Origin: a virus
Reading direction: 5' to 3' (one strand)
Length of the DNA: 25,769 bases
Virus record (IMG/VR): IMGVR_UViG_3300049734_000348
Location: 1 to 25,769 of that record
Shown: piece by piece, positions 4,916-25,672 of the stretch
How positions within the stretch are numbered: the first letter of the stretch is position 1
How the letters are laid out: every line of letters begins with the position of its first letter
The notes under the pieces: generated by a model
The model's database searches: none
The model's input: the letters and a program-made list of their open reading frames with translations, nothing else
Told to the model about the DNA's origin: nothing
Made by a program: the position numbers and the translations under genes

Positions 4916-4975
4916 AATCTCACAACAAGGCATGGTCGGTAGGTGAAGCGTGGCGCTGCCGTATGTTGTGAGATT
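4916..4975. repeat. Perfect 12-bp inverted repeat with 36-base loop
   Basis: AATCTCACAACA (4916-4927) and TGTTGTGAGATT (4964-4975) are exact reverse complements. They lie just upstream of the HNH endonuclease and small terminase genes. Possible roles are a packaging (cos) or terminase-binding site, an operator for a dimeric protein, or an RNA hairpin ahead of the HNH start. No T-tract follows, so it is not a terminator. Confidence 0.7.
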
Positions 4976-4998
4976 CGCAGGAAGGGATAGGCAAATTA

Positions 4999-5429: not shown

Positions 5430-5930
5430 ATGTCAACCAGAGGGCCAAAACCTAAACCGACTGAGTTAAAGAAAATCCAGGGGAATCCGGGGCACAGACC
5501 GCTGAACCAGGGCCAGCCCAGGCCCAAAATGCCGGTCAAGAAGGGACGCGGCATGCAGCCGATTGCCCGAAAGTTCTGGGACGAGTACGCGTCCGAGCTG
5601 GAGCGGCTGCAAATCCTGACCGGCGTGGACAGCGCGGCGTTCCGACTAATGGCGGAGCACTTCGGCTTTGCGGTGCAGGCGGCGAAGCAGCTCCAGGCGG
5701 AGGGCCTGACCGTTGAGACGGCCAAAGAGGGCGTGAAGAAAAATCCGCTGGCTCAAATTTTCAAGGACAACTCACTGGCGTTTAAAAGCTATGCCGCCGA
5801 ATTTGGATTGACGCCCAGCGCCCGCACCCGGCTGCGAATGGAGCCGGAGGGGGAGCAGCTTAGCCTGGCAGAGCAGTTGTTCAAGGCGGTGGTTGAGGTG
5901 GTGGATGAGCCGGCGCAGCAAGATTCCTGA
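5430..5930 (+). CDS. terS: Terminase small subunit, P27 family
   Basis: The product is 166 aa. It opens with RGPKPKPTELKKIQGNPG and RPLN, the hallmark of the P27-type small terminase. A helical middle follows (about 45-125) and an acidic C-terminus. Small terminases of this family bind the packaging site and recruit the large subunit. No strong ribosome-binding site is visible before the ATG (ACGGGTAGAACG), so expression may depend on coupling to the HNH gene 20 bases upstream. Its last 26 bases overlap the next small gene. Confidence 0.9.
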   Translation: MSTRGPKPKPTELKKIQGNPGHRPLNQGQPRPKMPVKKGRGMQPIARKFWDEYASELERLQILTGVDSAAFRLMAEHFGFAVQAAKQLQAEGLTVETAKEGVKKNPLAQIFKDNSLAFKSYAAEFGLTPSARTRLRMEPEGEQLSLAEQLFKAVVEVVDEPAQQDS

Positions 5931-6090
5931 GGCAGGGATTTACCCGGCAGACCTTGATCTGGCCGAGTGGCGATTATTTGAACGGCTGCGGTCCCTGCGG
6001 CGGCGCAGGCAAAATAAAATCCTACTTATTCGGAGTGAGGACTGCCGCGAGATAGGCAATCTGCCGGCAGAAAAGAAGAAATCCCATTAG
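5905..6090 (+). CDS. 61-aa basic small protein between the terminase genes
   Basis: The preferred start is the ATG at 5905, inside the end of the small terminase gene and preceded by GAGGTGGTGG; a TTG at 5893 in the same frame is less likely. The 61-aa product is strongly basic (SLRRRRQNK near residue 30; EKKKSH at the end) and largely helical. DLAEWRLFERLRSLRRRRQ suggests an amphipathic helix that could bind DNA or the terminase. I recognise no family. Downstream lies a promoter-terminator module, so it may end an early packaging transcript. Confidence 0.5.
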   Translation: MSRRSKIPEAGIYPADLDLAEWRLFERLRSLRRRRQNKILLIRSEDCREIGNLPAEKKKSH

Positions 6091-6116
6091 CCTGGCCGGG
6101 AAATATCGGCTATAAT
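6087..6116 (+). promoter_or_regulatory. Promoter candidate with flanking inverted repeat
   Basis: TATAAT at 6111-6116 lies in GGCTATAATGGC, the same context as the strong promoter at 1480. The best -35 is a poor TTAGCC (6087-6092) at 18 bases. The -10 is flanked by an imperfect inverted repeat, CCGGGAAATATC with GAAATATCCCGG (about 6097-6108 and 6127-6138, 10 of 12 positions pairing). This could be an operator or an activator site that makes up for the weak -35. Transcription would begin near 6123 and meet a terminator at 6161. Confidence 0.5.
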
Positions 6117-6160
6117 GGCAACCAACGAAATATCCCGGTCCGCGTGAAACGAAGACACAC

Positions 6161-6198
6161 CCGGGCGAGCCTTTAATTTGGGCTTGCCCGGTTTTTTT
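6161..6198 (+). terminator. Intrinsic terminator directly upstream of the large terminase
   Basis: CCGGGCGAGCC (6161-6171) pairs with GGCTTGCCCGG (6181-6191) through 11 pairs, one of them G-U. The loop is 9 bases and seven T follow (6192-6198). It ends 10 bases before the large terminase ATG and leaves no room for a ribosome-binding site. With the promoter at 6111 it makes a leader of about 75 nt, mirroring the arrangement at 1457-1574. Confidence 0.85.
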
Positions 6199-6208
6199 GT
6201 CCCCTAAT

Positions 6209-7945
6209 ATGGTCACTTATTTAGCCGGTCCGCAAGGGACCAAAATTCAAACCACATCCGGCCCGCGCTTCACGGCGGAGCAGTACGTTGATGATGTACT
6301 GAGCGGCCGGCAGAGGGCCTGCCGTTGGGTCAAACTGGCCTGCGAGCGCCACCGGCGCGATTTGCAGACGGGCCACCGGCGCGGGCTTTATTTTGACGAC
6401 ACGGCGGCGAAGGTGGCGATTGGTTTCTTTTCAGTGCTGCGGCACTGGAAGGGCGAGTGGGCCGGACAGCCGGTCACACTTGAGCCGGCGCAGCAGTTCT
6501 GGATCTGGAGCCTATTCGGCTGGAAGCGGGAGGATGGTACGCGGCGCTTCCGCACGGCTTACCTGGAGGTCGCCCGGAAGAACGGCAAAACGACCATCGC
6601 CGCCGGGGTGGGCTTATATCTCGCGTTTGTGGACGGCGAGCCGGGGGCGGAAGTGTACAGCGCGGCCACGATGCGCGACCAGGCCCGGATCAGCCACCGC
6701 GACGCGACGCGGATGGTCAAATCATCGCCGCAGCTCCGGCAGTTAATTGGGGTGTACCGGGATAACCTGCACGAGGTCAGGAGCGGCAGCAAGTTCGAGC
6801 CGCTGAGCGCCGATTACAACAGCCTGGACGGGCTGAACGTCCATGGCGTGATCGCCGACGAGCTGCACGCCTGGCCGCAGCCGGAGCTGTGGGGCGTGCT
6901 GAAGACGGGCACCGGCTCGCGCCGGCAGCCGCTGATGCTGGCCATCACTACGGCCGGGGTGGACCAGCAGGGGGTCTGCTACCGTCAAAGAGAGTATGTG
7001 ACGCGGATCCTGAAGGGCATCATTCAGGATGACGCCTATTTTGGGATCATCTACACCCTGGACACGAAACAGGACTGGCCGGACCTGGAGGCTGACGATG
7101 GCTGGCAGGATGAGCGCAACTGGGTCAAGGCTAATCCCAATCTGGGGGTGTCCAAAAAATGGGAGACGATGCGCAGTGACGCGGGCGAGGCGGCCAATAT
7201 GCCGGCGGCGTTGAACCAGTTTCTGCGCTGGCATTTGAATGTCTGGACCCAGGCGGTCACACGCTGGGTCAACCCGATTTTTTGGGCAGCCTGCGGCCAG
7301 CGGGCGGTTGACCGGGAGCAGCTTTTGGGCCGGGCCTGCTACGGCGGGCTGGACCTGTCGCAGATCTACGACATCACGGCCCTGGCGCTGGTCTTTCCTC
7401 CGGAGGAAGACGACGAACCATACCAGGCGCTCTGCGTTTTCTGGCTGCCGGCAGACAACATGATCGAGCGGGTCCGCCGAGACCAGGTGCCCTATGACGT
7501 GTGGGCGCGGGCCGGCTTTCTCAAGCTGACACCGGGGAACGTGGTGGATTATGACTTCATTCTGGCGGAGATTGGGGAGCTGGCGGAGGAGTTTGACCTG
7601 CGCGAGATTGGCTATGACCGCTACGGGGCGACGCTGGTCAGCCAGCAGCTCCAGGAGATGGGCGGCGATGAATGGGTGGTGCCGATTGGACAGGGGTTTT
7701 TGAGTATGTCGCCGCCGATGAAGGAGCTGGGCAAGCTCGTCGCCGGCCAGAATTTGGCCCATGGGAACAATCCGATCCTGACCTGGATGGCCGACAACCT
7801 GGTAGCGGTTGAGGACCCGGCCGGCAACATCAAGCCGGACAAGTCCAAAAGCCGGGAGAAGATAGACGGGGTTGTTGCCCTCATCATGGCGCTGGACCGG
7901 GCAACCCGCCACATTGATCAATCGCCGGGGATACGGATCCTATGA
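6209..7945 (+). CDS. terL: Terminase large subunit, HK97-like
   Basis: This 578-aa protein is the packaging ATPase and nuclease. VARKNGKT at 121-128 is the Walker A motif and VIADELH at 214-220 the Walker B with catalytic E218. The C-terminal nuclease domain shows candidate metal-binding Asp in GGLDLS (D382) and in GYDRYG (D470). Length and motif order fit the Terminase_1/HK97 group. The ATG at 6209 is chosen because the frame has no better start; a TTG at 6197 lies in the T-run of the preceding terminator. There is no Shine-Dalgarno sequence before either, which is odd for a highly conserved gene. The stop overlaps the next start (ATGA). Confidence 0.95.
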   Translation: MVTYLAGPQGTKIQTTSGPRFTAEQYVDDVLSGRQRACRWVKLACERHRRDLQTGHRRGLYFDDTAAKVAIGFFSVLRHWKGEWAGQPVTLEPAQQFWIWSLFGWKREDGTRRFRTAYLEVARKNGKTTIAAGVGLYLAFVDGEPGAEVYSAATMRDQARISHRDATRMVKSSPQLRQLIGVYRDNLHEVRSGSKFEPLSADYNSLDGLNVHGVIADELHAWPQPELWGVLKTGTGSRRQPLMLAITTAGVDQQGVCYRQREYVTRILKGIIQDDAYFGIIYTLDTKQDWPDLEADDGWQDERNWVKANPNLGVSKKWETMRSDAGEAANMPAALNQFLRWHLNVWTQAVTRWVNPIFWAACGQRAVDREQLLGRACYGGLDLSQIYDITALALVFPPEEDDEPYQALCVFWLPADNMIERVRRDQVPYDVWARAGFLKLTPGNVVDYDFILAEIGELAEEFDLREIGYDRYGATLVSQQLQEMGGDEWVVPIGQGFLSMSPPMKELGKLVAGQNLAHGNNPILTWMADNLVAVEDPAGNIKPDKSKSREKIDGVVALIMALDRATRHIDQSPGIRIL

Positions 7946-8112
7946 ATAGTTCGATAGGCTCACTATGGAACGATTTCCTGATGTTTGGCGGGGCTTGCTT
8001 CGTACTGGCGGGCTGCTACCTGATCACGCCGGCGCTGGCGCTGGTGGCCCTGGGCCTGATTTTGATGGCGGCCGGCCTGGCCCGGATGCGAGGTTCACAT
8101 GGCTCTGATTGA
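7942..8112 (+). CDS. 56-aa membrane protein between large terminase and portal
   Basis: It starts at the ATG within the stop of the large terminase (ATGA at 7942) and ends 14 bases inside the portal gene. It has two hydrophobic segments, about residues 13-27 (FLMFGGACFVLAGCY) and 29-45 (ITPALALVALGLILMAA), and a basic end (ARMRG). Small membrane proteins of this kind recur at this spot in HK97-like phages, with unknown function. It resembles the 44-aa protein at 4290 only in size and topology. Tight overlap on both sides supports it as a real translated gene. Confidence 0.7.
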   Translation: MNSSIGSLWNDFLMFGGACFVLAGCYLITPALALVALGLILMAAGLARMRGSHGSD

Positions 8113-9679
8113 AAAGCTGCTCAATTGGCAGCCGGGCACATTATCGCCGAAAGCTGAAAGCAATCCCTGGATTTCTCCGGCCTTTTGGGGCCTGGACAGC
8201 GCGTCCGGGCCGGCAGTCGGGCCGGATACGGCGCTGAAGATCAGCACGGTCTACGCCTGTATGGGACTGCTGTCAGAGACGATAGCCAGCCTGCCCCTGG
8301 TGGTTTTTCGCTACATCGAAAACGAGGAAGGGCGGGAGCGGGCCAGAAATCACCCCCTTTATCCGATATTGCACGACCAACCCAACGAAACGCAGACAGC
8401 CTTTGATTTTACGCAGATGATGCAGGCGCATGCGCTGATGCGCGGCAGCGGCTACGCCAAAATGGTGGCCGGGCCGCGTGGATTTGTAGACCAGCTCATC
8501 CCCCTTCACCCGAATAATGTCCGCAAGGAGAAGCTGACGAACGGGCGGATCCGCTATCAGGTGACTGAGGATGATGGGCGGGTAAAGGCTTACAACAATG
8601 AGGATATTTTTGAGGTGGGGGGCCTGACCCTGGACGGCTGGAACACGGTCAGCGTTATTACCTATGCCAGGGATTCGCTGGGCTTGAACCTGGCGGCCGA
8701 ACGGTACGGCAGCCGCTTTTTCAGGAACGACAGCCGCCCGGGCGGGGTGCTGAAGACGGATACGACCCTGAAGGGCGACGCGGCCAAGCGGATCAAGGCC
8801 GAGTGGGAGACGCTGCACGCCGGGGGGAATCAGCACCGGGTAGCCGTGCTGGAACAGGGCCTGGAGTGGCAGCAGATAGGGATCAGCCCGGAGGAGGCCC
8901 AATTTTTAGGGACGCGGGAGTTCCAGGCGGAGGATGTTACACGTTGGTTCCGCGTGCCGCCGCACATGGTTGGATTGACCAGCAAGGCCACGAGCTGGGG
9001 CAGCGGGATTGAGGAGATGAATATCGGCTTCCTGACCTATACCCTGCGGCCGTGGCTGACCCGCTGGACCCAGGCCATCAAACGCGATTTGATTTTGGCC
9101 CCACAGACCTATTTTGCTGATTTTATTGTCGAGGGCTTGCTCCGGGGCGATATTGAGACCCGCTACAATGCCTACGCGGTTGGGCGGCAGTGGGGCTGGC
9201 TGAGCGTGAACGAGATCCGGCAGCGTGAAAATCTCAATCCGGTGGCGGGAGGAGATCAGTTTCTCACGCCGCTCAATATGAGTCCGGCAGGAGCAGGGGG
9301 GCAGGGGAGCAGAGGGGCAGGGGGGAATTCTTTCTCCTCCGCTCCTCCGCTCCCCCACTCCCCTGCTGTTCATTACCGCCTGCTGGCGGAGGAGAGCGCG
9401 GCCAGGCTGGTACGGAAGGAGATCGCGGCGATAGGGCGAATGGCGAATGGCGAATGGGGGGAGGACCAGGCCGACCAGGTGAGCCGATTTTACCGGGACC
9501 ACGTGGCTCTGGTAGCTCAGGCGATGCGGATCCCGATGGAGAAGGCGGCGGTTTACTGCGACCGGGGGCGAAACGAAGTTTTAGAGAAGGGCGCGGCGGC
9601 GCTGGCCGATTGGGAGCCGCGGCGGGTATTGGAATTGGCGGATTTAGCGATGAGTACGGAAGTAGTCAGCAGTCAGTAG
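8099..9679 (+). CDS. Portal protein, HK97-like
   Basis: The product is 526 aa. Features of HK97-type portals are visible: TALKISTVYACMGLLSETIASLPL near residues 43-66, HPLYPILHDQPNE (about 84-96), DVTRWFRVPPHMVG (about 280-293) and NEIRQRENLNPVAGGDQ (about 376-392). The portal is the dodecameric ring through which DNA is packaged. The start overlaps the upstream small gene. The region after about residue 396 is unusual: mini-repeats (9291-9368 and 9435-9457) are translated as a Gly/Ser/Pro-rich linker before a final helical part. The stop codon lies in a hairpin repeat. The core call is secure; the C-terminal extension is atypical. Confidence 0.93.
   Translation: MALIEKLLNWQPGTLSPKAESNPWISPAFWGLDSASGPAVGPDTALKISTVYACMGLLSETIASLPLVVFRYIENEEGRERARNHPLYPILHDQPNETQTAFDFTQMMQAHALMRGSGYAKMVAGPRGFVDQLIPLHPNNVRKEKLTNGRIRYQVTEDDGRVKAYNNEDIFEVGGLTLDGWNTVSVITYARDSLGLNLAAERYGSRFFRNDSRPGGVLKTDTTLKGDAAKRIKAEWETLHAGGNQHRVAVLEQGLEWQQIGISPEEAQFLGTREFQAEDVTRWFRVPPHMVGLTSKATSWGSGIEEMNIGFLTYTLRPWLTRWTQAIKRDLILAPQTYFADFIVEGLLRGDIETRYNAYAVGRQWGWLSVNEIRQRENLNPVAGGDQFLTPLNMSPAGAGGQGSRGAGGNSFSSAPPLPHSPAVHYRLLAEESAARLVRKEIAAIGRMANGEWGEDQADQVSRFYRDHVALVAQAMRIPMEKAAVYCDRGRNEVLEKGAAALADWEPRRVLELADLAMSTEVVSSQ
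9291..9368. repeat. Inverted G-rich/C-rich mini-repeat inside the portal gene
   Basis: The left arm has G-runs at 9296-9301, 9304-9307, 9314-9317 and 9320-9325, a quadruplex motif with loops of 2, 6 and 2 bases. The right arm (about 9334-9365) is the complementary C-rich type and can pair with the left arm to form a long hairpin. The related GCAGGGGA unit recurs at 18851-18868. It is translated in frame in the portal C-terminal region. Confidence 0.8.
9435..9457. repeat. GCGAATG tandem mini-repeat inside the portal gene
   Basis: Three near-exact heptamer copies, GGCGAAT, stand head to tail and are translated as part of RMANGEWGE. Seven is not a multiple of three, so the copies are read in different frames, yet the gene stays open. 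Confidence 0.75.
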
Positions 9680-9711
9680 TCAGAGAAGAGATTATCTGAC
9701 ATCTGACTACT
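9675..9711. repeat. Hairpin repeat over the portal stop codon
   Basis: AGTAGTCAGA (9675-9684) and TCTGACTACT (9702-9711) are exact reverse complements with a 17-base loop, preceded by further AGTAGTCAGC/AGTCAGT units from 9661. The portal stop codon (9677-9679) lies in the left arm. No T-run follows. It could mark an mRNA processing or stability point between portal and protease. Confidence 0.75.
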
Positions 9712-9735
9712 GGCTACTCTTCATCTGGAGGCGAA

Positions 9736-10647
9736 ATGTACGAGCACATCGTTCAGGCGGTCCAGGCGCTGCCCTGGGCAATTTTACCGGAAAAACTGGC
9801 GGTGATCCAGCAGATTTTGGTTATACGGACATCCGGATACCGGCCCACAGCAGAAGAAATCAAGGCGGAGCTGGAAGCGGCCCGCAACGGCGAGAGGCAG
9901 GCGATCAGCGGGGGCACGGCCATTGCGATCATCCCCATCGTCGGAACGCTGATTCCGCGTGGAAATATGTTAATGGAGGCCAGCGGGGCGGTCAGCGTGC
10001 AGCGGCTGACGGCGGCGTTTCGGGCGGCGCTGGCTGACCCGGAGGTGGGCAGCATCATCCTGGATGTGGATTCGCCGGGCGGCCAGGTGGGCGGAATTGA
10101 GGAGCTGGCGGCGGAGATCTACCAGGCCAGGGGTCAAAAACCAATCACCGCGGTGGCCAACACCCTGGCGGCCAGTGCCGCCTATTGGCTGGCCAGCGCG
10201 GCGAGCGAGCTGGTGGTTACGCCGTCGGGCGAGGTGGGCAGCATCGGGGTGTTTGCGATCCACGAGGATTACAGCGCGGCGCTGGACAGGGTTGGGGTAA
10301 AGGTCTCGCTGATTTCTGCCGGCAAATACAAAACCGAGGGCAATCCGTTTGAGCCGCTGGGAGAAGAAGCGCAGGCGGCGGTCCAGGGCACGGTCAACGA
10401 TTACTACGATATGTTCATCAGGGCGGTAGCCAGAGGCCGTGGGGTGAGCCAGGCCGATGTCATTGCCGGTTTCGGCGAGGGCCGGGTGGTGATGGCGGAG
10501 CAGGCGGTCCGGCTGGGAATGGCCGACCGGGTGGCTACCATTGACGAGGTGATCGGCGGATTGCAGGCCGGCAGTTCAAAGGGCAAGCAGGTCCGGGCGG
10601 ACGACGGTGAGGACCGTTTGCGGCGGCTGCGGGCGTACAGCAGGTAG
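9736..10647 (+). CDS. Head maturation protease, S49 (SppA-like)
   Basis: This 303-aa protein starts at an ATG preceded by CTGGAGGCG. The ClpP/SppA fold is clear: IIPIVGTLIP (about 66-75), IILDVDSPGGQVGG (about 110-123), the nucleophile Ser in TLAASAAYW (S147), GSIGVFAIHED (about 172-182) and the Lys-bearing SAGKYKTEGNPFEPLG (K197 or K199). Phage S49 proteases, like lambda C, cleave capsid or scaffold proteins during head assembly. It lies between portal and capsid, as expected. No separate scaffold gene is visible; the N-terminal region of the capsid protein may take that role. Confidence 0.92.
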   Translation: MYEHIVQAVQALPWAILPEKLAVIQQILVIRTSGYRPTAEEIKAELEAARNGERQAISGGTAIAIIPIVGTLIPRGNMLMEASGAVSVQRLTAAFRAALADPEVGSIILDVDSPGGQVGGIEELAAEIYQARGQKPITAVANTLAASAAYWLASAASELVVTPSGEVGSIGVFAIHEDYSAALDRVGVKVSLISAGKYKTEGNPFEPLGEEAQAAVQGTVNDYYDMFIRAVARGRGVSQADVIAGFGEGRVVMAEQAVRLGMADRVATIDEVIGGLQAGSSKGKQVRADDGEDRLRRLRAYSR

Positions 10648-12052: not shown

Positions 12053-12688
12053 ATGAAGGACGTTTTGGTGTTTACGCCGGTTTACCGGCTGGAAGCTGAA
12101 ACGGTGACGGCGATTTTCTCGCTGGAGTGGGACGGGCCGATCTCGCTCCTGCTCCAGCGGGATAACCCGCAGGGGGAGCCGTATGCCGATCACCTGCACC
12201 AATACCTGCGGGCGCAGGATTTATTTCTGGCCGGCCCGTTTGAGGCGCTGCTGGTGATCGAGAGCGACATCATTCCGCCAGCGGACACGCTGAAGCGGCT
12301 GGCGGCGCTCGACTGCGACCTGGCTTATGGCTGCTACCAGTTCCGGGGCGGGAATGTGAGCAACATTCTGCGCAGGTACTACGATTGGCCGCAGCAGTCC
12401 CGGAATATGGGCGAGAGCCTCCAGATCACGCCGGGACTGTGGAGCGCGGCCAGGCGGCGGGGCGTGGTGGACTGCTCCGGCAGCGGCTTGGGCTGCATCC
12501 TGATCCGGCGGCACGTGCTGGAGGAGACGCCGTTTGAGGCAGCGCCCAATGTGGGCTTTTTTGACTGGCACTGGACGGAGAGGTGCTACCAGAAGAATTA
12601 CCGGATGCGGGCGGAGATGAACGTACTGTGCGGGCACAAGGATGTGGATGGAAAGGTGTTATGGCCACCGGTAGGAAGTAGGGAGTAG
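12053..12688 (+). CDS. Small GT-A-like glycosyltransferase 1
   Basis: This 211-aa protein looks like a family-2 type (GT-A) nucleotide-sugar transferase. It opens with VLVFTPVYR and has ALLVIESDIIPP (65-76), where ESD at 70-72 takes the place of the DxD metal motif. SGSGLGCILIRRHVLE (about 142-157) and GFFDWHWTERCYQ (about 168-180) fit the acceptor side. It is shorter than typical family members. It lies between the capsid and connector genes, an unusual place. It might glycosylate capsid or tail proteins, or an unknown host target. Its last residues (GSRE) and stop codon come from a GGGAGTA repeat. Activity is not proven by sequence. Confidence 0.6.
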   Translation: MKDVLVFTPVYRLEAETVTAIFSLEWDGPISLLLQRDNPQGEPYADHLHQYLRAQDLFLAGPFEALLVIESDIIPPADTLKRLAALDCDLAYGCYQFRGGNVSNILRRYYDWPQQSRNMGESLQITPGLWSAARRRGVVDCSGSGLGCILIRRHVLEETPFEAAPNVGFFDWHWTERCYQKNYRMRAEMNVLCGHKDVDGKVLWPPVGSRE

Positions 12689-12696
12689 GGAGTATG
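12681..12696 (+). repeat. GGGAGTA tandem repeat at the junction of two genes
   Basis: Two GGGAGTA units (12681-12694) follow a degenerate GGAAGTA. The first unit contains the stop codon TAG (12686-12688) of the upstream gene; the second supplies a GGGAG ribosome-binding sequence and the A of the next ATG (12694). The same heptamer occurs four times at 17177-17204. Confidence 0.85.
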
Positions 12697-13248
12697 CCCT
12701 TTTTGGAGGTGATCACCCGCTACTACAAGCGGCCGGGGATGCTGGCCAGGAACCAGGCCAGCCTGCAATTACAGACCAGTGATGACTGGAAGCAAACTTT
12801 GTTGGGAGATTCGGTGGGCCGGGGCATCGCCTGGGCGGCGGAAAACCTGGGGATGTACGCGCCCAACCTGGTAGGCGAATATATCTGGCTTTTGGACGAT
12901 GACGACGAATGTACCCGGGCCACGCTGGTGGATGAACTGAAGGGGATCGTGGAGCTGCACCACCCGGATGTAATAATGCTGAAAATGGACCATGGTCCCC
13001 TGGGGACCCTGCCCGGCCCGGCTGATTGGGGCAAGGGCGTAACCGTGGGCGGGGTGGGCAGCAGCGCCTTTGTTATCCGGCGGGCAGTGTGGCAGGCGCA
13101 CGCGACAGCCTGGCTGCCGGGGATGTATCACAGTGATTTTAATTTTATTGCGGCGGTGCTGGAGAGCGGTCCGTTGGTCTACTGGCACGATGTGGTGGCC
13201 AGCCGGGTGCAGCGGATCAGCATCGGGAGAGCGGAAGATGAAAGTTAG
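12694..13248 (+). CDS. Small GT-A-like glycosyltransferase 2
   Basis: The product is 184 aa. FLEVITRYYKRPGMLARNQASL at the start and EYIWLLDDDDECTRATLVDEL (62-82) resemble the nucleotide-sugar binding half of family-2 glycosyltransferases, with D68-D71 as the metal-binding cluster. GSSAFVIRRAVW (about 121-132) parallels the CILIRRHVL stretch of the previous gene, suggesting the two are distant relatives. The sequence is truncated compared with normal family members. It starts inside the GGGAGTA repeat and overlaps the next gene by 11 bases. A role in modifying virion proteins is inferred from position only. Confidence 0.55.
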   Translation: MPFLEVITRYYKRPGMLARNQASLQLQTSDDWKQTLLGDSVGRGIAWAAENLGMYAPNLVGEYIWLLDDDDECTRATLVDELKGIVELHHPDVIMLKMDHGPLGTLPGPADWGKGVTVGGVGSSAFVIRRAVWQAHATAWLPGMYHSDFNFIAAVLESGPLVYWHDVVASRVQRISIGRAEDES

Positions 13249-17207: not shown

Positions 17208-18836
17208 GTGGCCAATTTAAATATAGCCCTGCAAATTTCAGCCGTTGATAATGCTTCTGGCCCCATTGGCCGCATCAAGAGTGCCCTGGGCGGGATTGGC
17301 AGCGCGGCGGGGACGGTGGCGACAATAGCGGGCGGAGCGCTGCTGACGGGTATCGGGGTGACGGTGGCCGGGCTGGATGCGGCGGGCGTGGCCGGGCTGG
17401 GCTTCAATAATTCGATGGAGCAGGTGGCGGCGCAGTTAAATGCGTTTACGAAAGATGGGGAGAAGACCTCGCAGATTCTGGATATGATCCGGGAGCGGGC
17501 GGCCAAGACGCCGTTTGAGTTCGAGCAGATGGCCCAGGCGACCACGGCGCTGTATCCGGCGGCGACGCAGAGCGGGGTGGCGCTGGAGGAGTTAATAGCA
17601 CAGGCGGAAATTCTGGCGGCCAGCAATCCGGCCCAGGGGCTGGAGGGGGCCGCGTTCGCTTTAAAGGAGGCGGTGGGCGGCGATTTTACCAGCATTATCG
17701 AGCGGTTTAATCTGCCGCGGCAGTATTTAAACCAGTTGAAGGAGGAGGGGGTACCGGCGGCGCAGGCAGTCGGTATGGCCATGCAGCAGATGGGACTGGA
17801 CGCGAGCCTGGTCAGCAATCTGGCGGAGACGGCGAGCGGGCGCTGGAGCACGCTGAAGGACACGTTTGTCACCTTGTCGGCGACCGTGACCCAGCCGATT
17901 TTTAATGCCTTCTCCGATTCGTTGGGACAGGTGAACCAGGTACTGGCGGAGAATGAGCCGCTGCTGACAGCGCTGGCGCAGCAGTTGGCGGGGGGTATAG
18001 CCACCGGGATTAATTGGCTGGTAACGGTGGGGCTGCCGGGGATGTGGGGAACGATGCAGACAGTCTGGGCCTGGATCAGCGGGACGGCCATCCCGACGCT
18101 GCAATTATGGGGACAGACGATCAGTGATTTTGTAACCCCGAAGTTTGAGGCGCTGTCGGTGATCCTGGACCAATTTATAACGGCGGTGATGCCGCCCCTG
18201 CAATTAGCGTGGCAGGCGATAGTCACGGTCTGGACGACCGAGGTGGGGCCGGCCCTGGACGAACTATGGGCAGCCCTGGGCGAGCTGTTTGAGGCGCTGG
18301 GCCTGGGCACGGGCGAAACCGATTTATGGGGCGCGGCCCTGCTAACGCTGACAGGGTTTTTATATGGGGTGACGCAGACCGTGCAGGCCCTGACGCCGGT
18401 CATCCACCTGCTGGGCGGGGCGATCAGGTTAGGAATTGACCAGGTGACAAATATGGTTGAGGGGCTGGCCAGTATGAAGCGGGGGGCGGATGCGGTGATT
18501 GCGCCGCTCCAGGCGGTGGCGGATAAAATCGGCGATTTGATTGCTTCGGCGGCGAATATGCCGGATTGGCTCATTCCCGGCAGCCCGACGCCGTTTGAAT
18601 TGGGCCTGCGGGGCATTGGGGACGCGGCCAGATCGCTGCCGGCGCTGGCGCTGCCGGGGGTTTCGGCCCTGGGTTCTTCTGCTCCAGCAGGGGGGCTGGC
18701 TTTGGCGGCTCCCGCGGGAGGGGGCGGCGGTGGGATTACGATTGGATTAATCACGATCCAGGCGGGATCTTACGAGGAAGGACAGGCGGCGGGTCGCGGG
18801 TTTGTGGAGGAACTGCGGAGCCGGGGGCTGATGTGA
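17208..18836 (+). CDS. Tape measure protein
   Basis: This 542-aa protein starts at GTG 17208 after AAAG. It follows the chaperone genes and has the usual composition: Ala/Gly-rich hydrophobic stretches (IGSAAGTVATIAGGALLTGIG near the N-terminus) and FNNSMEQVAAQLNAFT (about 68-83). Long amphipathic helices follow, and a glycine-rich linker (PAGGGGGGITIG, about 506-517) precedes the C-terminal SYEEGQAAGRGFVEELRSRG. At about 1.5 angstrom per residue it predicts a tail near 80 nm, short for a siphophage. The first part has the RERAAKTPFEFEQMAQATTALYP pattern of TP901-type tape measures. No peptidase or lysozyme domain is seen. Confidence 0.88.
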   Translation: MANLNIALQISAVDNASGPIGRIKSALGGIGSAAGTVATIAGGALLTGIGVTVAGLDAAGVAGLGFNNSMEQVAAQLNAFTKDGEKTSQILDMIRERAAKTPFEFEQMAQATTALYPAATQSGVALEELIAQAEILAASNPAQGLEGAAFALKEAVGGDFTSIIERFNLPRQYLNQLKEEGVPAAQAVGMAMQQMGLDASLVSNLAETASGRWSTLKDTFVTLSATVTQPIFNAFSDSLGQVNQVLAENEPLLTALAQQLAGGIATGINWLVTVGLPGMWGTMQTVWAWISGTAIPTLQLWGQTISDFVTPKFEALSVILDQFITAVMPPLQLAWQAIVTVWTTEVGPALDELWAALGELFEALGLGTGETDLWGAALLTLTGFLYGVTQTVQALTPVIHLLGGAIRLGIDQVTNMVEGLASMKRGADAVIAPLQAVADKIGDLIASAANMPDWLIPGSPTPFELGLRGIGDAARSLPALALPGVSALGSSAPAGGLALAAPAGGGGGGITIGLITIQAGSYEEGQAAGRGFVEELRSRGLM

Positions 18837-18870: not shown

Positions 18871-19665
18871 TTGAAAGTCAAATCGTTTGATGGGCTGGCG
18901 TTGAGCCAGTATGAGATTGACGACAATATTCCGCTGGAGTTTGGCAGTAACCTGATGTCACTGCCGCGGATGGGCGGGGCCTTTGACGCGGATGGGGATG
19001 AGCAGTTCCGCAAGGCCCTGGTCATCAGCCGGGATTTTGAGCTAGTCGAAAGCAGCTACGGGGCGGTAGACACGACGCTGGACAGCCTACGGGCAAAGGC
19101 GAACCTGGGCCTGCGCTGGCTGGTGATCGAGATGCGCGACGGGAGCGAGCGCGGGACGTGGGCCAAGCTGAAGCGGGTGCAGGGGGCCTATAAGCCGGAA
19201 CATTTGACCTGGCTGCCGGTGAAGCTGACCTTTGAGGCGGCCTGGCCCTGGTTTGAGCTGATCAGCGAGGTGTGGTATCTGGACACCGGGCAGGTGCTGG
19301 ACGGCGGCCTGAATTTGGACCCGCACTATACCAGCCAGAGCGGGGCGGGCACGTTTACGATCAACAATACGGGCGGCGACCGGATCAGGCGGGGCCTATT
19401 GGTCCTGAAGGGACCCACTACCAGTCCGAAAGTAGAGAATGTGACGACGGGGGAGTGGGTGCAGTACGGGAGTGACCTGGCCAGCGGCGAGACGCTGGTA
19501 ATTGACATCGGGGCGCAGACGGCGCTTTTGGGCGGGCTGAACGTGTGGAGCGACATGAGCATCGGGGAAATGCAGATGCGGCTTTTCAGCCTGGCGGTGG
19601 GGAGCAATTCGATTGTGTTTTTGGGCGGCGGGACGCTGGAAGTACATTGGGCGAGGGCGTACTAA
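18871..19665 (+). CDS. Distal tail (Dit)-like protein
   Basis: The 264-aa product starts at TTG 18871 behind GGGGAGA. Its first half (SFDGLALSQYEIDDNIPLEFG, ESSYGAVDTTLDSLRAKAN) and YKPEHLTWLPVKLTFEAAWPWFEL (about 110-133) match the N-terminal domain of Dit proteins, which form the ring below the tube. The second half is a beta-rich domain (GTFTINNTGGDRIRRGLLVLKG, EVHWARAY) like the C-terminal sandwich of Dit. It follows the tape measure, as expected. There is no recognisable sugar-binding motif. Confidence 0.78.
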   Translation: MKVKSFDGLALSQYEIDDNIPLEFGSNLMSLPRMGGAFDADGDEQFRKALVISRDFELVESSYGAVDTTLDSLRAKANLGLRWLVIEMRDGSERGTWAKLKRVQGAYKPEHLTWLPVKLTFEAAWPWFELISEVWYLDTGQVLDGGLNLDPHYTSQSGAGTFTINNTGGDRIRRGLLVLKGPTTSPKVENVTTGEWVQYGSDLASGETLVIDIGAQTALLGGLNVWSDMSIGEMQMRLFSLAVGSNSIVFLGGGTLEVHWARAY

Positions 19666-19700
19666 TTGTCAACAGAGAATTGTCAATTGTCAATTGTGAA
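19664..19700. repeat. CAATTGT tandem mini-repeat before the tail fibre
   Basis: AATTGTCAAC then AATTGTCAATTGTCAATTGTGAA follow the Dit-like stop. The same motif family is at 944-980 and 10771-10813. The tail fibre ribosome-binding site (TAGGAG) comes directly after. Confidence 0.75.
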
Positions 19701-19715
19701 TGATAGGAGACCAGG

Positions 19716-21893
19716 ATGACAACTGATCACCATACTCCGATAGCGACGGGGGCGGCGGCGAACGCGGCCACGTTTAATACTGTGTTTGAGCAACTTGACG
19801 CGGCGATCACGGCCGGGTTGGGCGGGGTGACTTACACCAACAAGAGCGGGAGCAGCCTGGCTGCCAATGACTCCGTGATCATTGATGTCAGCAATGATGA
19901 GGCGGTGACGACGACGACGACCCTGGGCGATAACAAACGGCCGGGGATCATTGTCAGCGGCGGCGCGGCCAATGCCGAGGTAACGGTCAGCTACCTTGGA
20001 GAAGTGACGGTGGTGGTCTCCGCCAGCGCGACGCGAGGGCAGTGGATCAAAACATCGTCGGTGGCCAAGCGGGTCAGCCCGACAAGCACGCTGGACGTGG
20101 GCGTGTTTGGAATTTTGACCACGAACAGCTCCGGCGGGGCGGGGACGACGGCCAAGGCGCTGCTGTTGGGAATGGTCGTTACGGCGCCGGGGACGCACAG
20201 CCACGCGGCGAGCGAAATTATCAGCGGCCTGCTGGCCCTGGCCAGGGGCGGGACGGCGGCGGATCTGAGCGCGACCGGGCCGGGGTACGTGAAGCAGGCG
20301 ACGCTGGGAGCCGTGCTCAGTGTCGGGAGTATTGCCAGTGGGGATCTGCCGGCGGCGAGCGATACGGGCCAGGGGGCGGTGGAGCTGGCGACGAATGCCG
20401 AGGTGCAGACGGGAACGGATACGGCGCGGGCGGTGACGCCGGCCGGGGCAGCCGCTACCTACTACAAGAAATCGGAGTTTCTGAGCACCTCCGGCGGGGC
20501 GAGCGATACCGGGAAGCCGATTGTGCTGGACGCAGCCGGAAAAATAGCGGCGACGATGCTGGCGGCGGGTTATATTGACCACAGCCAACTGCTCAACCTG
20601 GCGGCGGGCGATCCGCATACGCAGTACATTTTGAAAAGCCTGCTGACGACCAAGGGCGACCTGATTGTGCGCGACGCCTCGGGGCCGCAGCGGCTGGCGG
20701 CCGGAGCGGAGGGCCAGGTGCTGGCGGTGAACGCGGCGGAGCCGACCGGGCTGAAGTGGATCCCGCCGGTGAGCGCCGGGGCGGGTATTCCCGGCTCGAC
20801 GATTGACGCCAAGGGCGACCTGATTGTGGGTACGGCCGACGACACTTACAGCCGGCTGGGGGCCGGGTCTAACGGCCAGGTGCTGCTGGCCGACAGCAGC
20901 CAGGCGGTTGGGCTGGTGTGGTCCAACCTGCTGCAAGAGAACATTTTTATCAACGGCGGATTTGACCATTTTCAGCGGAACACGGACGACACCGGGGTGA
21001 CGACCACCCGGAAGTATGTCGCCGACCGCGCGGCGGTGACGACCGGAGCGGGAACATTGGCCCACGTGCAGCGCAGCACGACGGTCCGGACCGGGGCCAG
21101 GTCAAAATACAGCCTGCAGCTCGATGGGGCTGTCGGGGTGACGACGGTGGATATTGACCAGCGGATTGAAGCGGCCATGGCCGGGCTTTATAAGCGGCAG
21201 GTCTATTTTAGCGTTTACATCTACAATGGCTCCGGGGCGGCATTTACGCCCAAATTATTTGTCTCGACCCCGTCGGTGGCCGACAATTGGACCAGCAGCA
21301 CGGTTCGCAACGGCGGCGGGTCGGGCGAGGATTTGCAGAGCTGCGCGGACAGCGCCTGGACTCAGATGACCTGGTCGGCGGACATCAGCAGTTACACAAA
21401 TATTGACAACGGGGTGGAGTTCAGGCTGCAAATTCCGAGCGGGAGCCTGGTGGCCGCGGATGTGGTGCGCCTGGCCGAGCTGAACTTGGTACCGGGCGGG
21501 GTGGCGACGCCGTTTGTGGGCCGGCCGGTTGGGATTAGTTTATTGCTATGCCAACGCTATTATATCAAATCGTTCGCCCAGGCGACCACGCCGGCGCAAA
21601 ATGTGGGAATTAACACTTCGACCTTTACCTACACGGCGCACACAGCCGCTGCGGTTGTGAACCGCAGCCCGTTCATTCCCTTTCCGGTGATAATGCGGAC
21701 GAACCCGACGATTGTGACATATAATCCGGGGGCTGCTAACAATCAGGCGCGAGATCAGAACGCGGCGGCAGATTGTTCCAGCACGGCGACGCTGGCGACG
21801 GAGCGCGGGATCCGGGTGGTGGCCACGGGTGCGGCCGGGACGGCGGTGGGGAATTTGCTGGAAGTTCATTACACGGCAGATGCGGAGTTGTGA
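19716..21893 (+). CDS. Tail fibre / receptor-binding protein
   Basis: The product is 725 aa, with TAGGAGACC before the ATG. The N-terminus (DHHTPIATGAAANAATFNTVFEQL) is typical of phage fibres. DTGQGAVELATNAEVQTGTD (about 212-231) is a fibre repeat of the Phage_fiber_2 kind. Next comes DPHTQYILKS and two tandem repeats: KGDLIVRDASGPQRLAAGAEG (about 311-331) and KGDLIVGTADDTYSRLGAGSNG (about 366-387). From about residue 408 (ENIFINGGFDHFQRNT) a carbohydrate-binding-like beta domain runs to the middle. The C-terminal RYYIKSFAQATTPAQN region ends the protein. It probably contacts the host surface polysaccharide. Gene order with a fibre-assembly-like protein and sulfatase directly after supports that. 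Confidence 0.83.
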   Translation: MTTDHHTPIATGAAANAATFNTVFEQLDAAITAGLGGVTYTNKSGSSLAANDSVIIDVSNDEAVTTTTTLGDNKRPGIIVSGGAANAEVTVSYLGEVTVVVSASATRGQWIKTSSVAKRVSPTSTLDVGVFGILTTNSSGGAGTTAKALLLGMVVTAPGTHSHAASEIISGLLALARGGTAADLSATGPGYVKQATLGAVLSVGSIASGDLPAASDTGQGAVELATNAEVQTGTDTARAVTPAGAAATYYKKSEFLSTSGGASDTGKPIVLDAAGKIAATMLAAGYIDHSQLLNLAAGDPHTQYILKSLLTTKGDLIVRDASGPQRLAAGAEGQVLAVNAAEPTGLKWIPPVSAGAGIPGSTIDAKGDLIVGTADDTYSRLGAGSNGQVLLADSSQAVGLVWSNLLQENIFINGGFDHFQRNTDDTGVTTTRKYVADRAAVTTGAGTLAHVQRSTTVRTGARSKYSLQLDGAVGVTTVDIDQRIEAAMAGLYKRQVYFSVYIYNGSGAAFTPKLFVSTPSVADNWTSSTVRNGGGSGEDLQSCADSAWTQMTWSADISSYTNIDNGVEFRLQIPSGSLVAADVVRLAELNLVPGGVATPFVGRPVGISLLLCQRYYIKSFAQATTPAQNVGINTSTFTYTAHTAAAVVNRSPFIPFPVIMRTNPTIVTYNPGAANNQARDQNAAADCSSTATLATERGIRVVATGAAGTAVGNLLEVHYTADAEL

Positions 21894-21894
21894 G

Positions 21895-22218
21895 ATGTAT
21901 CAATTAACGGATTTTGGAGTGATCCGGCTGGCGGATGGGGCGGCCATCCCCGAGGATCCTGGAAATGTAGACTATCGAGAGTACCTGGCCTGGCGGGCCG
22001 CGGGAAACAAGCCTGAACCGGCAATTTCCGATTTATGGCAGGACATCCGGGCGCGGCGGGCCAGCCTGCTGGCGGCCTCGGATTGGACCCAGGTGGCCGA
22101 TGCGCCGCTGGATAAGGCGCAGCAGGCGGCCTGGCGGGCCTACCGCCAGAAATTGCGCGATCTGCCCCGGGGGGCTGCCGATCCGGGGGCGGTCGTCTGG
22201 CCGGAGCCACCCGGATAA
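21895..22218 (+). CDS. Tail fibre assembly-like protein
   Basis: The start chosen is ATG 21895, one base after the fibre stop codon; earlier starts lie inside the fibre gene. The 107-aa product has DYREYLAWRAAGNKPEPA (about 27-44) and a C-terminal ASDWTQVADAPLDKAQQAAWRAYRQ then KLRDLP. That resembles the common phage tail chaperone module whose consensus is DWTQ.pDa.l....AWr.YRq.LRdlP. It likely helps fold or attach the fibre. The next gene, the sulfatase, begins 3 bases after its stop. Confidence 0.78.
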   Translation: MYQLTDFGVIRLADGAAIPEDPGNVDYREYLAWRAAGNKPEPAISDLWQDIRARRASLLAASDWTQVADAPLDKAQQAAWRAYRQKLRDLPRGAADPGAVVWPEPPG

Positions 22219-22221
22219 ACT

Positions 22222-23685
22222 ATGGCCAAGACCCTGCTGGCCGTTGTGGTTATGACCCTCTTTTTGTGGCCCCAGGCGGCTAAAGCCAATCTACGCTACA
22301 ATTTTGTGATTTTCCTGACCGACGACCAGCGCTGGGACACGCTCTGGGCAATGCCCGTGGTGCGGACCCGGCTGGCCAGCCGGGGGGTGACGTTTCAAAA
22401 CGCCTTCACGACAACGCCGGTGTGCTGTCCGAGCCGGGCCAGCCTGCTGACCGGCCAGTATGCCCACCATCACAAAGTGCTGAATAATGCTGTTGGGATG
22501 TGGGGGCTTAATCAGTTTGATACCCTGGCGACCAATTTGCAGCGGGCGGGCTGGCGGACCGGTTTCACCGGCAAGTACATGCACGGTTACAGCCCCGGTT
22601 ATATCCCGCCGGGCTGGACGATGTTTGTGGCAGGCGAAAATGGCGGGCAGCTCCTGGACTGGCGGCGCCTGCGGAACATTACCACCGGCAGCAGCCTGCC
22701 GGGCGCGGCGCGGCTGGGTGCGACCTACGACGTTGACCGCTATCTGACTTTGCATCACCAGGATGTGGCCCTGGATTTTTTGGATCGTTACGGTCAAAGG
22801 CCGTTTTTTTTATTCATTTCGACTTACGCGCCCCACACCCCGGCCACCCCGCAGCAGGGCGATATGGGCCTGTTTGCCGATTACATTTACCGGGGGCGGG
22901 GCTACGGCGAAGCGGATCTATCCGACAAGCCGGCCTGGCTGCGAGCGGCGGCGATTGACGCTTTGAAACCCAGTGATGAACTTAACCGCAACCGGCTGCG
23001 CTCGCTGCAATCAGTGGACAGGATGGTGGGGGTCATTCTGGACAGGCTGGCCGCGCTGGGCGTGCAGGACAGGACGGTGGTCATCTTTGCCAGTGACAAT
23101 GGGGTGAGCTGGGGGGAACACCGCTTTTATGACAAGGGCGCGCCTTACGAGGAAGTTATCAGAGTGCCGCTGATTGTGAGCGTGCCAGGCCCTGCGCCGG
23201 CGACCCCTGAGAGTGGCCGAAGTGCCGCCCGTAGGGGTGCGCGGGTTGAAAGCAAAATGGCCCTGCTGATTGACATTGCCCCAACAATTTACGAGCTGGC
23301 CGGCCTGGTCCATCCGGCTGATGGGCGGAGCCTGATCCCGCTGCTGGCTGATCCGCAGGCAGCCTACCCCTTCGGGCGGCCCTTCGGCCACTCCCAAGCG
23401 TCGTCCGAAGCGTCGTGGCGTGAAGATTTTATTATCGAGGCGTTTGGGTATCTGGAGTGGGGTTTTGAGACGGATGGGATCTGGCAGGGGGTGCGTTCGG
23501 AGCGGTGGAAGTACGTGAGGTGGAACGACGGCGAGGTGGAACTTTATGACCTGCAAAACGATCCGTTTGAGCTGGAGAATATCGCGCCGGCCAGGCCGGA
23601 CGAGGTGAGGAGGCAGGAGGGGCGGCGGCTGGATCTGCTGGGCCGGATGCTGTATCTGCCGGTGGTGAGCAATGATCCGAATTGA
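22222..23685 (+). CDS. Phage-borne secreted sulfatase
   Basis: This 487-aa protein belongs to the sulfatase (alkaline phosphatase-like) superfamily. A signal peptide is visible: positive start, hydrophobic core LLAVVVMTLFLW, and a likely cut after AKA (residue 22). TDDQRWDT carries metal ligands D34 and D35. VCCPSRASLLTGQY carries the formylglycine motif C-x-P-S-R (C68, R72). GKYMHG has K118 and H121, APHTP has H205, SDNG has D292 and N293, and K305 follows. All typical catalytic residues are therefore present. Activity would need the maturation of C68 by a host formylglycine-generating or anaerobic maturase. Ribosome-binding support is weak. It overlaps the next tail gene by 14 bases. Two inverted mini-repeats lie in surface loops. 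Substrate unknown; a sulfated polysaccharide is inferred. Confidence 0.9.
   Translation: MAKTLLAVVVMTLFLWPQAAKANLRYNFVIFLTDDQRWDTLWAMPVVRTRLASRGVTFQNAFTTTPVCCPSRASLLTGQYAHHHKVLNNAVGMWGLNQFDTLATNLQRAGWRTGFTGKYMHGYSPGYIPPGWTMFVAGENGGQLLDWRRLRNITTGSSLPGAARLGATYDVDRYLTLHHQDVALDFLDRYGQRPFFLFISTYAPHTPATPQQGDMGLFADYIYRGRGYGEADLSDKPAWLRAAAIDALKPSDELNRNRLRSLQSVDRMVGVILDRLAALGVQDRTVVIFASDNGVSWGEHRFYDKGAPYEEVIRVPLIVSVPGPAPATPESGRSAARRGARVESKMALLIDIAPTIYELAGLVHPADGRSLIPLLADPQAAYPFGRPFGHSQASSEASWREDFIIEAFGYLEWGFETDGIWQGVRSERWKYVRWNDGEVELYDLQNDPFELENIAPARPDEVRRQEGRRLDLLGRMLYLPVVSNDPN
23211..23227 (+). repeat. GAGTGGCCGAAGTGCCG mini-repeat in the sulfatase gene
   Basis: This 17-base sequence is translated in a loop (about residues 330-336). 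Its near-exact reverse complement (16 of 17) occurs at 23377-23393, giving a pair of inverted copies in one gene. Confidence 0.65.
23377..23393 (-). repeat. Inverted partner repeat in the sulfatase gene
   Basis: CGGCCCTTCGGCCACTC is the reverse complement of the element at 23211 with one mismatch. It is translated in FGRPFGHSQASSEASW (about residues 384-399), a loop unlikely to be part of the catalytic core. Confidence 0.65.
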
Positions 23686-25672
23686 CGTGCTGGATGCGAG
23701 CGACAACAAGATAGGCGAGGGGCCGCTTCAGCCGGAAGAGGTGACGATCCGGCGCTCGCTGGACAAGGTGGGCGGCTGCGATTTTCCGGTGGCAGCGGTT
23801 GAGCCGAAGGTGGCGGTGATCGGGGCGGGGCGGAAGTACCAGATTTTCCACGCGGAATATGGCCTGCTGGGAACATTCCGACACGCGAGCCAGAGCCTGG
23901 GAGCGGCCAGCGATAAGCCGATGTTGAGGGTTAAGGCGGATGACCAGTTGATCGAGCTGGTCCATAAGAACGGTTATTTTCGCCGGAATTTCAATCATAC
24001 AGCGGTGGAAAGCGTGGTGAGCACGCTGCTGAGTGTGGCCGGCTGGACGGACGGCGGCGTAGAGACGGAGATCGGCAGTACGACGGTGAGCTATGAGGGA
24101 GAGAGTATATTTGAGGCGCTGGACGTGCTGCGGGACCGTTGGGGACGGCATTTCCGGCTCGGCTCGATTGAGCGGACGCTGGATTTCGGGGCGTTGGGGG
24201 AATCGAGCGGGGTGCGGCTGATCCGGCCCGAAAGCATCCCGCGGGAGATGGAGCAGAACGGCGAGGTGGCGTTTATTGCCGGCCTGGAAATTACGGAGGA
24301 GAGCGAGGCAGTGGTCAACCGGTTGATCCCGGTGGGGGCCGGGGCCGGGACGACGCAACTGACGTTGCAGTATGTGACGGCGGCTGATACGGCTTACCCG
24401 GTGCAGTCGGGGAGCAATGCGGATGGGTCGCTGTTTTACTATATTGAGGATGGGGACAGCCAGACGGCTTACGGACTGGTGGAGCGACCGTTTGAGCGGA
24501 ACGACATCCGGCCGCTGACAAACAGCACGCCGGACCTGCAAAACGCGGCCAATGCGTTATATAATGCGGCGCTGGCAGCGCTGCTAAAGTGGAAGTCGCC
24601 CCGCAGCTATTACAGCCTGACGGCGACGAAGCTGGACCCGCGGCGGCTTAAGCCGGGGGAACAGGTGCGGGTGGTTTTCAGGGGGGTGGCGCAGGCCCAG
24701 GGCCGGCCCTACAAGTGGGTGGATGTGGACGCCGATTTGTGGGTGATGGATATTGAGGAGAGCTACAGCAGTGCCGGCCAGCAGAGTGTAAGGCTGGAGG
24801 TGGCGACGAGCGATACACGACGGACCAGCGACAGCGATGTGCTGGCGAAGCTGACCCGGGACACAAAGGTGTTCAAAACACACGTGCAGCCCAATTTGAC
24901 CCACAGCCCGACGGGGCCGTACGTGAAGCGGATGGATGCGACGCACACGGCGAGGTTCAATGTGCGGCTTAAAAGTGAGGTCCTGGCGATCAACCGGGCC
25001 ATACTGCGCTTTCAAACCAGCTCGCTGCGCAGCAGCGTGACGAGCGTGGCCGCGGCGGGAAGCACCATTGGCAGCACGCAGGCCGGGGGCGGAGGGTCGC
25101 AAACCAGCAATTCGGGCGGGGGATCGAGTCAGAGCAGTAATTCGCAGGGGAGCCATACGCACGAGGTCACTGTTTATGGTGGCAATCCGGCGGCAGCCTA
25201 TGATGTGTACTGGGACCCGGATGCACACCGGTTTGTGCTGCCCTCGGTGGGGAGTGGGGAGGATGACGGGCAGACCTCGTCTTCGGAGGGAAGCCACAAC
25301 CATTCGATCAATATCCCGTCGCACACGCACAATGTGAACCTGCCCAGTCACAACCATGATCTGTCTATTCCGGCGCACGGCCACGCCATGAGCTATGGGC
25401 TGTTCGAGGATTCGGCGGTTCCGCAGAATATCCGGGTGGCGATCAACGGAGTGGACCGGACGGCGGCGCTGGGCGGGCCATGGTCAACGGGCGGCGGAGG
25501 CGGGGGACTCAGCGGCCAGGCAGTGGGGCCGGTGGATATAGAGAAGGAGATCACGGCGTATTTGAACCGGGGGCAGGACAATACGGTGACGTTTAGCTGC
25601 TCCGGGGGGCGGGGTGAGGTGACGTGCCTGGTGGAGTGTTTGCTGACGATCCAGGCGATTGTGGTGACATAA
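23672..25672 (+). CDS. Tail tip protein with HxH array
   Basis: The 666-aa product starts at ATG 23672, inside the end of the sulfatase gene, with GGTGGTGAG upstream. The N-terminal two thirds (MIRIDVLDASDNKIGEG, IRRSLDKVGGCDFPV, then ADDQLIELVHKNGYFRRNF) resemble tail-associated baseplate hub proteins (Tal/gp28-like) with split-barrel domains. After about residue 470 a Gly/Ser/Gln linker leads to H495-x-H497 and then HxH pairs at H542, H551, H560 and H569, exactly nine residues apart, with consensus [SA]HxHxxxxP. Such HxH arrays bind metal ions in trimeric fibre stalks (T4 gp37). The C-terminal domain ends with strands (NTVTFSCSGG, EVTCLVECLLTIQ). No peptidase motif is seen. Confidence 0.78.
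   Translation: MIRIDVLDASDNKIGEGPLQPEEVTIRRSLDKVGGCDFPVAAVEPKVAVIGAGRKYQIFHAEYGLLGTFRHASQSLGAASDKPMLRVKADDQLIELVHKNGYFRRNFNHTAVESVVSTLLSVAGWTDGGVETEIGSTTVSYEGESIFEALDVLRDRWGRHFRLGSIERTLDFGALGESSGVRLIRPESIPREMEQNGEVAFIAGLEITEESEAVVNRLIPVGAGAGTTQLTLQYVTAADTAYPVQSGSNADGSLFYYIEDGDSQTAYGLVERPFERNDIRPLTNSTPDLQNAANALYNAALAALLKWKSPRSYYSLTATKLDPRRLKPGEQVRVVFRGVAQAQGRPYKWVDVDADLWVMDIEESYSSAGQQSVRLEVATSDTRRTSDSDVLAKLTRDTKVFKTHVQPNLTHSPTGPYVKRMDATHTARFNVRLKSEVLAINRAILRFQTSSLRSSVTSVAAAGSTIGSTQAGGGGSQTSNSGGGSSQSSNSQGSHTHEVTVYGGNPAAAYDVYWDPDAHRFVLPSVGSGEDDGQTSSSEGSHNHSINIPSHTHNVNLPSHNHDLSIPAHGHAMSYGLFEDSAVPQNIRVAINGVDRTAALGGPWSTGGGGGGLSGQAVGPVDIEKEITAYLNRGQDNTVTFSCSGGRGEVTCLVECLLTIQAIVVT

Follow-up and report, generated by a model that had tools for sequence, protein, structure and literature searches.

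The locus described here raises the question of what a sulfatase is doing among the genes with which a phage recognises its host, and where such an enzyme would act. The window, by which we mean the whole 25769-base stretch of DNA that was analysed, is an IMG/VR virus record and probably a fragment. Its late operon follows a siphovirus-like order of terminase, portal, S49 protease, major capsid, tail tube, tape measure, Dit, fibre, fibre-assembly chaperone, sulfatase and tail tip, and the features that matter most for the argument are these:

17208..18836, + strand: tape measure protein (PHROG tape measure; 68% identity over 548 aa to the related phage G001)
18871..19665, + strand: distal tail protein, Dit (PF22768, 8.5e-08; PHROG Dit, 4.2e-10)
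19716..21893, + strand: tail fibre, 725 aa (PHROG tail fibre protein, 2.3e-31)
21895..22218, + strand: tail-fibre assembly chaperone, APC or Phage_tail_APC (PF16778, 1.1e-20; PHROG tail fibre assembly, 4.6e-19)
22222..23685, + strand: type I (formylglycine) sulfatase, 487 aa (PF00884, SGSH_C, conserved active site, fold search)
22222..22287, + strand: probable Sec signal peptide, residues 1-22, MAKTLLAVVVMTLFLWPQAAKA (hydrophobic core, AKA, helix in model)
22423..22437, + strand: catalytic motif C68-C-P-S-R72, the formylglycine site (sequence and alignment)
23672..25672, + strand: tail tip or tail-associated protein, 666 aa (34% to the N-terminal 660 aa of the G001 tip; PHROG structural matches)

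The identity of the enzyme is carried by profile matches and by its active site. The open reading frame occupies exactly 22222-23685 and matches the Pfam families PF00884 Sulfatase (E 1.2e-36, residues 27-361) and SGSH_C (E 1.6e-16, residues 298-455); these sulfatase domains are the only ones Pfam finds in the protein, which carries no fibre or attachment domain. A CCPSR motif beginning at C68 supplies the C/S-x-P-x-R sequence required for formylglycine, and residues D34, D35, C68, R72, K118, H205, D292, N293 and K305 are invariant when the protein is aligned with five chromosomal homologues. The metal ligands and catalytic Lys and His of type I sulfatases (two N-terminal Asp, a late Asp-Asn, Lys, His and Lys) are all present. 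Judged from its sequence, 22222-23685 therefore apparently encodes an intact formylglycine-type sulfatase, in agreement with the original prediction of a complete enzyme with every expected catalytic residue. A Foldseek search with a low-confidence structure model (mean pLDDT 57) returned solved sulfatases as the best matches, family S1_11 first, with E down to 4e-20; alongside the strong profile matches, the protein is predicted to have the alkaline-phosphatase-superfamily fold. The BFVD fold search, for which the query model was weak, returned sulfatases in giant viruses only. The PHROGs v4 family phrog_19870, which has no assigned function or tail-module annotation, is matched by P0001 at 1.5e-36 and also by the sulfatases of L052, L105 and L102. 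A DGR target protein named FGE-sulfatase / C-type-lectin has been described (PMC12724379); an FGE/C-type-lectin misnaming of the window protein was excluded, as it matches PF00884 and does not match PF03781.

What the enzyme would act on can be narrowed only by analogy. The NCBIfam equivalog models match the protein only far below their cut-offs, and a named enzyme can therefore not be assigned. The nearest solved structures are the GlcNAc-6-O-sulfatase BT4656 (5g2v) and the 6-O-galactose porphyran sulfatases 7lha and 7snj, members of the S1_11 family of formylglycine (S1) carbohydrate sulfatases, with which the window protein has its fold family, catalytic Cys motif and metal ligands in common. 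That these are 6-O-sulfatases of hexoses and glucosamine counts for a 6-O-sulfated substrate; identity to them is only about 20-23%, however, so that their substrates are not transferable and a 6-O-sulfated sugar is a guess only, and they belong to catabolic loci whereas the window protein sits in a phage tail operon.

The N-terminus of the window sulfatase suggests a route out of the cell. Residues 4-15 form a hydrophobic core with a mean Kyte-Doolittle value of 2.74, the highest among the 12 sulfatases compared, followed by a cleavage-like AKA motif, and the structure model has a helix over residues 2-21. On the strength of the core and the AKA motif this segment is probably a Sec signal peptide, which upholds the earlier claim that the enzyme carries one. 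Similar N-termini are present in its cellular homologues and are lacking in the sulfatases of G032, of the T4-like records and of G851 considered below. The nearest of these homologues come from MAGs of Actinomycetota and from one labelled Gammaproteobacteria (L006), with which the window sulfatase groups in a tree at 99/99 support on long branches. Uncharacterised 'TDDQRWDTLWAMP' sulfatases of Actinomycetota and related MAGs (L002-L007) are 42-43% identical over the mature protein, have the active-site residues in common with it and bear N-terminal export signals as it does; their surroundings are ordinarily chromosomal and free of tail genes, as far as can be read from the ORFs, unlike the tail operon of the window.

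The original prediction held that formylglycine at C68 would have to be made by a host enzyme. PF03781 has no match in the window contig, and the viral records tested contained no PF03781 enzyme either, so that activation would indeed depend on the host. Five MAGs that carry a sulfatase homologue (G033, G035, G036, G038 and G040; loci L002, L004, L005, L007 and L009) likewise gave no PF03781 match, which could reflect incomplete MAGs or another activation route. A search for the host by TerL did not identify it: the best identity was 49% among 396 genomes from the phylum to which G033 belongs and 46% among 398 from that of G037.

Is the gene a genuine part of the phage? The chaperone stop at 22218 and the sulfatase ATG at 22222 leave a gap of 3 bases, the tail-tip start at 23672 overlaps the 3' end of the sulfatase by 14 bases, both as first reported, and the genes on both sides are phage tail genes by PHROG assignment. 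The codon-usage distance of the sulfatase to the phage core is 0.139, while the larger core genes span 0.125-0.163; codon usage like that of the core makes an assembly chimera unlikely. An assembly chimera, or a decaying passenger gene without a role, would be in keeping with a locus seen on a single contig, with an exact-pattern search that found no close viral homologue of the sulfatase and with the chimeric appearance of another record (L080). The tight junctions with tail genes, the intact frame and active site and the phage-like codon usage speak against it, and we regard it as very improbable; the original prediction, which had named a chimera as something that would overturn it, survives this objection. 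Low GC skew as a sign of recent import of the sulfatase was considered and dropped after per-gene codon analysis. The chaperone and the sulfatase lie in the same frame (22216-22224), separated by a TAA stop and one sense codon, and readthrough would yield a fusion.

Comparison with the closest phage, G001, whose TerL is 86% identical, places the sulfatase within the part of the tail region that changes between relatives. G001 is syntenic with the window through the tape measure gene at 47-86% identity, and the tape measure is the last tail gene of high identity common to both. Between the end of its Dit-like gene (L044:7135) and the start of its 1678-aa tip protein (7191) there are 55 bp, where the window interval from Dit to tip (19665 to 23672) spans about 4 kb and holds fibre, chaperone and sulfatase. 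The first ~660 residues of the G001 tip are 34% identical to the window tip, and its C-terminus carries a collar domain; we read G001 as having a fibre-like C-terminus fused to the tip in place of the separate fibre, chaperone and sulfatase. PF00884 was found in 0 of 31 TerL relatives of the window, many of which are fragments. Together, the difference between 55 bp and ~4 kb and the lack of PF00884 in these relatives mark the interval as variable, and the sulfatase can be assigned on this basis to a variable host-recognition cassette of fibre, chaperone and sulfatase. Exact-pattern searches of viral contigs with the sulfatase protein alone or with the tail tip found no close viral homologue, and the window fibre has mosaic, partial domain matches only, in L060 and L061.

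Other parts of the window drew our attention in passing. Two overlapping tandem ORFs (1599-2444 and 2441-3403, + strand) are paralogues 28% identical to each other, whose HNEPN / TECG-like motifs recall glycoside hydrolases; Pfam and PDB searches gave zero matches, G001 lacks both, a single-sequence model of ORF 1599-2444 was uninformative, and their codon-usage distance of 0.20-0.23 is atypical relative to the phage core. A glycosyltransferase-like pair (12053-12688 and 12694-13248, + strand) lies between the major capsid and head-tail connector genes and is kept in G001 (47%, 63%) and partly in G003 (50%), with Pfam support for ORF 12694-13248 at E 0.05 only. A palindromic repeat around TTCCCCAATTGGGGAA occurs in four copies, at 782, 4844, 10698 and 14447, and was not found in the relatives checked (L010, L044-L051).

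Sulfatases also occur in other phages. Two scans of IMG/VR metagenome contigs for the C-x-P-[ST]-R motif at the DNA level, which do not amount to a census, returned 48 loci, 26 of them matching sulfatase profiles (one, L110, under the Pfam cut-off). These 26 occupy varied contexts, including non-structural or cellular ones, and several lie in structural modules. In G851, whose contig also carries terminase, portal, protease, tape measure and endolysin, a 428-aa sulfatase without signal peptide overlaps the last of three fibre-like ORFs by one base. An alignment-based scan of viral contigs added one phage, G032, in which an 854-aa fibre-like gene is followed after 9 bp by a sulfatase with the motif CGAAR and no signal peptide; the contig has weak matches to terminase, head-tail adaptor and capsid. 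G847 encodes a 1682-aa protein (L102 370-5418) that includes an internal sulfatase domain (2.7e-26) and whose gene is directly followed by gp25-like and gp6-like baseplate wedge genes, and G849 a 1067-aa protein (L105 807-4010) with such a domain (1.2e-23), shortly after the baseplate-wedge gene that opens its operon; the N-terminus of the latter resembles the next ORF (E 1.6e-17). G847 and G849 are myovirus contigs with likely related operons, in which the sulfatase domain is fused into likely structural proteins, different genes in each, and these fusions suggest that other phages carry a sulfatase in the tail.

In six T4-like records the sulfatase lies between the portal and head-maturation protease genes, an arrangement read from PHROG assignments in L066/L086 and from similarity in the remaining four; the L085 record breaks off within the sulfatase. 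A further detail concerns L093, where a Sulfotransfer_2 ORF (8272-8937, 2e-07) shares the portal-protease insertion (5852-10375) with the sulfatase, a pairing that fits sulfated glycans being at stake; a further sulfotransferase-like ORF was noticed there by eye at 5852-6661, without a Pfam match. Phage-borne sulfatases with no fibre linkage are found in G346, L077, L087/L089 and L068/L078.

Several candidates were left out of this tally. We did not count L110, for its sub-threshold Pfam match, L112, which stands in a cellular-looking context, or L079 (unknown neighbours), and L080 was set aside as a probable chimera: one ORF (3542-5122, - strand) joins a C-terminal and an N-terminal sulfatase piece to Terminase_6C, and is either an assembly chimera or an odd insertion in a terminase gene. 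Unverified Campylobacter phage A11a/A18a records carry a sulfatase (L057, MG065691.1 79118-88353, and MG065686.1); that of A11a was not accepted, its surrounding ORFs looking cellular (transporter and membrane genes, enterobacterial order), and is probably contamination. Two human-gut 'Bacteriophage sp.' records were not accepted either, since they look like cellular loci.

These surveys qualify the starting assumption that sulfatases are not usual in phage structural modules: it agrees with the 50,697 annotated phage records, whose sulfatases stand, where inspected, only in apparently cellular contexts, and it gives way in so far as such genes recur in several phage lineages. The original prediction would have failed had homologues occurred only in host chromosomes and never beside tail genes; G032 and G851 carry them after fibre or fibre-like genes, and G847 and G849 inside baseplate-operon proteins. 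Sulfatases thus recur in the structural modules of several lineages, with the fibre-adjacent cases of G032 and G851 probably independent.

We favour, at about an even chance, a reading in which the window sulfatase is cargo of the variable cassette, activated by the host and exported, and removes sulfate from a polysaccharide of the cell surface or matrix. Its place between the chaperone and tail-tip genes and the tight coupling count for a cargo role in host recognition. The analysis shows the gene, its intact active site, its junctions, its cassette context and the recurrence of sulfatases in structural modules of other phages; export, activation, substrate class, timing and benefit are the inferred parts. 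Against this reading weigh the unsuccessful TerL search for the host, the lack of PF03781 matches in several MAGs with near homologues, and the non-structural or cellular contexts of some of the sulfatases on which the recurrence is based. Of the original prediction, the intact and probably exported enzyme, its coupling to the chaperone and tail-tip genes and its need for a host enzyme to make formylglycine are supported; that the fibre may recognise the sulfated polymer, or that superinfection may be blocked, are proposals. The enzyme would be translated together with the late tail genes, presumably be activated by a host formylglycine-generating enzyme and leave the infected cell through its signal peptide late in infection. 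Outside, it would take sulfate esters, most likely on 6-O-sulfated sugars, off the coats of the infected cell and of cells nearby. The benefit would fall around lysis: progeny could be freed from a sulfated coat or matrix, the receptor on infected cells and debris could be destroyed so that neither progeny nor competing phages stick, and the coat around neighbouring cells could be loosened.

A different placement of the same activity would make the sulfatase part of the virion: carried on the tail, it would desulfate capsule or sheath at adsorption, by analogy with tail-spike depolymerases and deacetylases, with the hydrophobic segment a leftover or an anchor in membrane or virion. Its position in the tail operon, the domains fused into likely structural proteins in G849 and G847 and the fibre-adjacent sulfatases of G032 and G851, which have no signal peptide, all fit such a role. 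The window protein, however, keeps the signal-peptide-like N-terminus of its cellular homologues and has neither an attachment domain nor a fusion, and an exported protein would leave the cytoplasm, where tails assemble; the predicted signal peptide and the lack of an attachment domain favour late export over virion incorporation, and we judge a virion role unlikely. Rather unlikely, in our view, is an auxiliary metabolic or lysogenic-conversion gene that scavenges sulfate or opens sulfated polysaccharide as a carbon source, its place in the tail operon being incidental, as for a moron. The cellular homologues with export signals could be catabolic; an integrase-like ORF, seen on sequence inspection at the left end of G001, means that the lineage of the window may be temperate; and some phage sulfatases lie elsewhere, that of G346 near a repressor-like gene and that of L076 beside thymidylate-synthase-like genes (read by eye). 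Tight coupling with late tail genes nevertheless suits lysogeny or early infection poorly, and the association with fibre and baseplate genes is repeated in unrelated phages.

The chemistry itself could also be misread. Some enzymes of the sulfatase superfamily hydrolyse phosphate esters, which counts against the cargo-sulfatase reading, and the group attacked could be a phosphodiester, a phosphonate or phosphoethanolamine on teichoic acid or another surface polymer. The catalytic promiscuity of the superfamily and weak matches to PF01663 Phosphodiest and NCBIfam PehA point that way; the full Pfam and SGSH_C matches, the CCPSR motif and profile and fold matches led by carbohydrate sulfatases point away from it, and we consider such a substrate improbable.

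Sulfatases already figure in lists of viral metabolic genes (PMC10029852), and a review of gut phages goes no further than to say that glycans might be acted on by enzymes that phage structures carry, experiments being lacking (PMC9853417). Open-access papers yielded no description of a sulfatase in a phage tail module. Taken together, the window sulfatase and its counterparts in several unrelated environmental phages suggest that some phages deal with their hosts in part by removing sulfate from sugars of the cell surface, which has been overlooked. More broadly, and at slightly less than an even chance, sulfatases may form a recurrent and undescribed class of enzymes for interaction with the host, which phages have repeatedly acquired, next to fibres or in baseplate-operon proteins and sometimes paired with a sulfotransferase, and with which phages would edit bacterial surface sulfation to enter, leave or exclude rivals; the secreted version in the window would be the exported form. 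If a phage sulfatase is indeed bound up with the fibre cassette, sulfation would become a trait of phage resistance and phage escape, and the practice of annotating viral sulfatases as sulfur-cycle metabolism genes would need correction.

The sulfatase family itself is well known. Sulfated polysaccharides are borne by many bacteria or surround them, and most work on the passage of phages through bacterial coats has concerned enzymes that cut chains. What would be new is a phage enzyme that modifies glycans by an unusual chemistry and that, in this case, would leave the cell by an unusual route. Like the tail-spike depolymerases and polysaccharide deacetylases, the window sulfatase is a phage-encoded modifier of surface glycans among receptor-binding genes. 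It is not a backbone-cleaving lyase or hydrolase, usually a beta-helix, of the tail depolymerase kind; rather than cutting or deacetylating a chain it is predicted to remove a sulfate substituent, and it lacks a fibre fusion and has a probable signal peptide. The proposed logic would be closer to that of a receptor-destroying enzyme than to that of a tail spike: as with the neuraminidase of animal viruses, a surface group would be removed and progeny would not re-adsorb, a functional analogy between enzymes that are not homologous.
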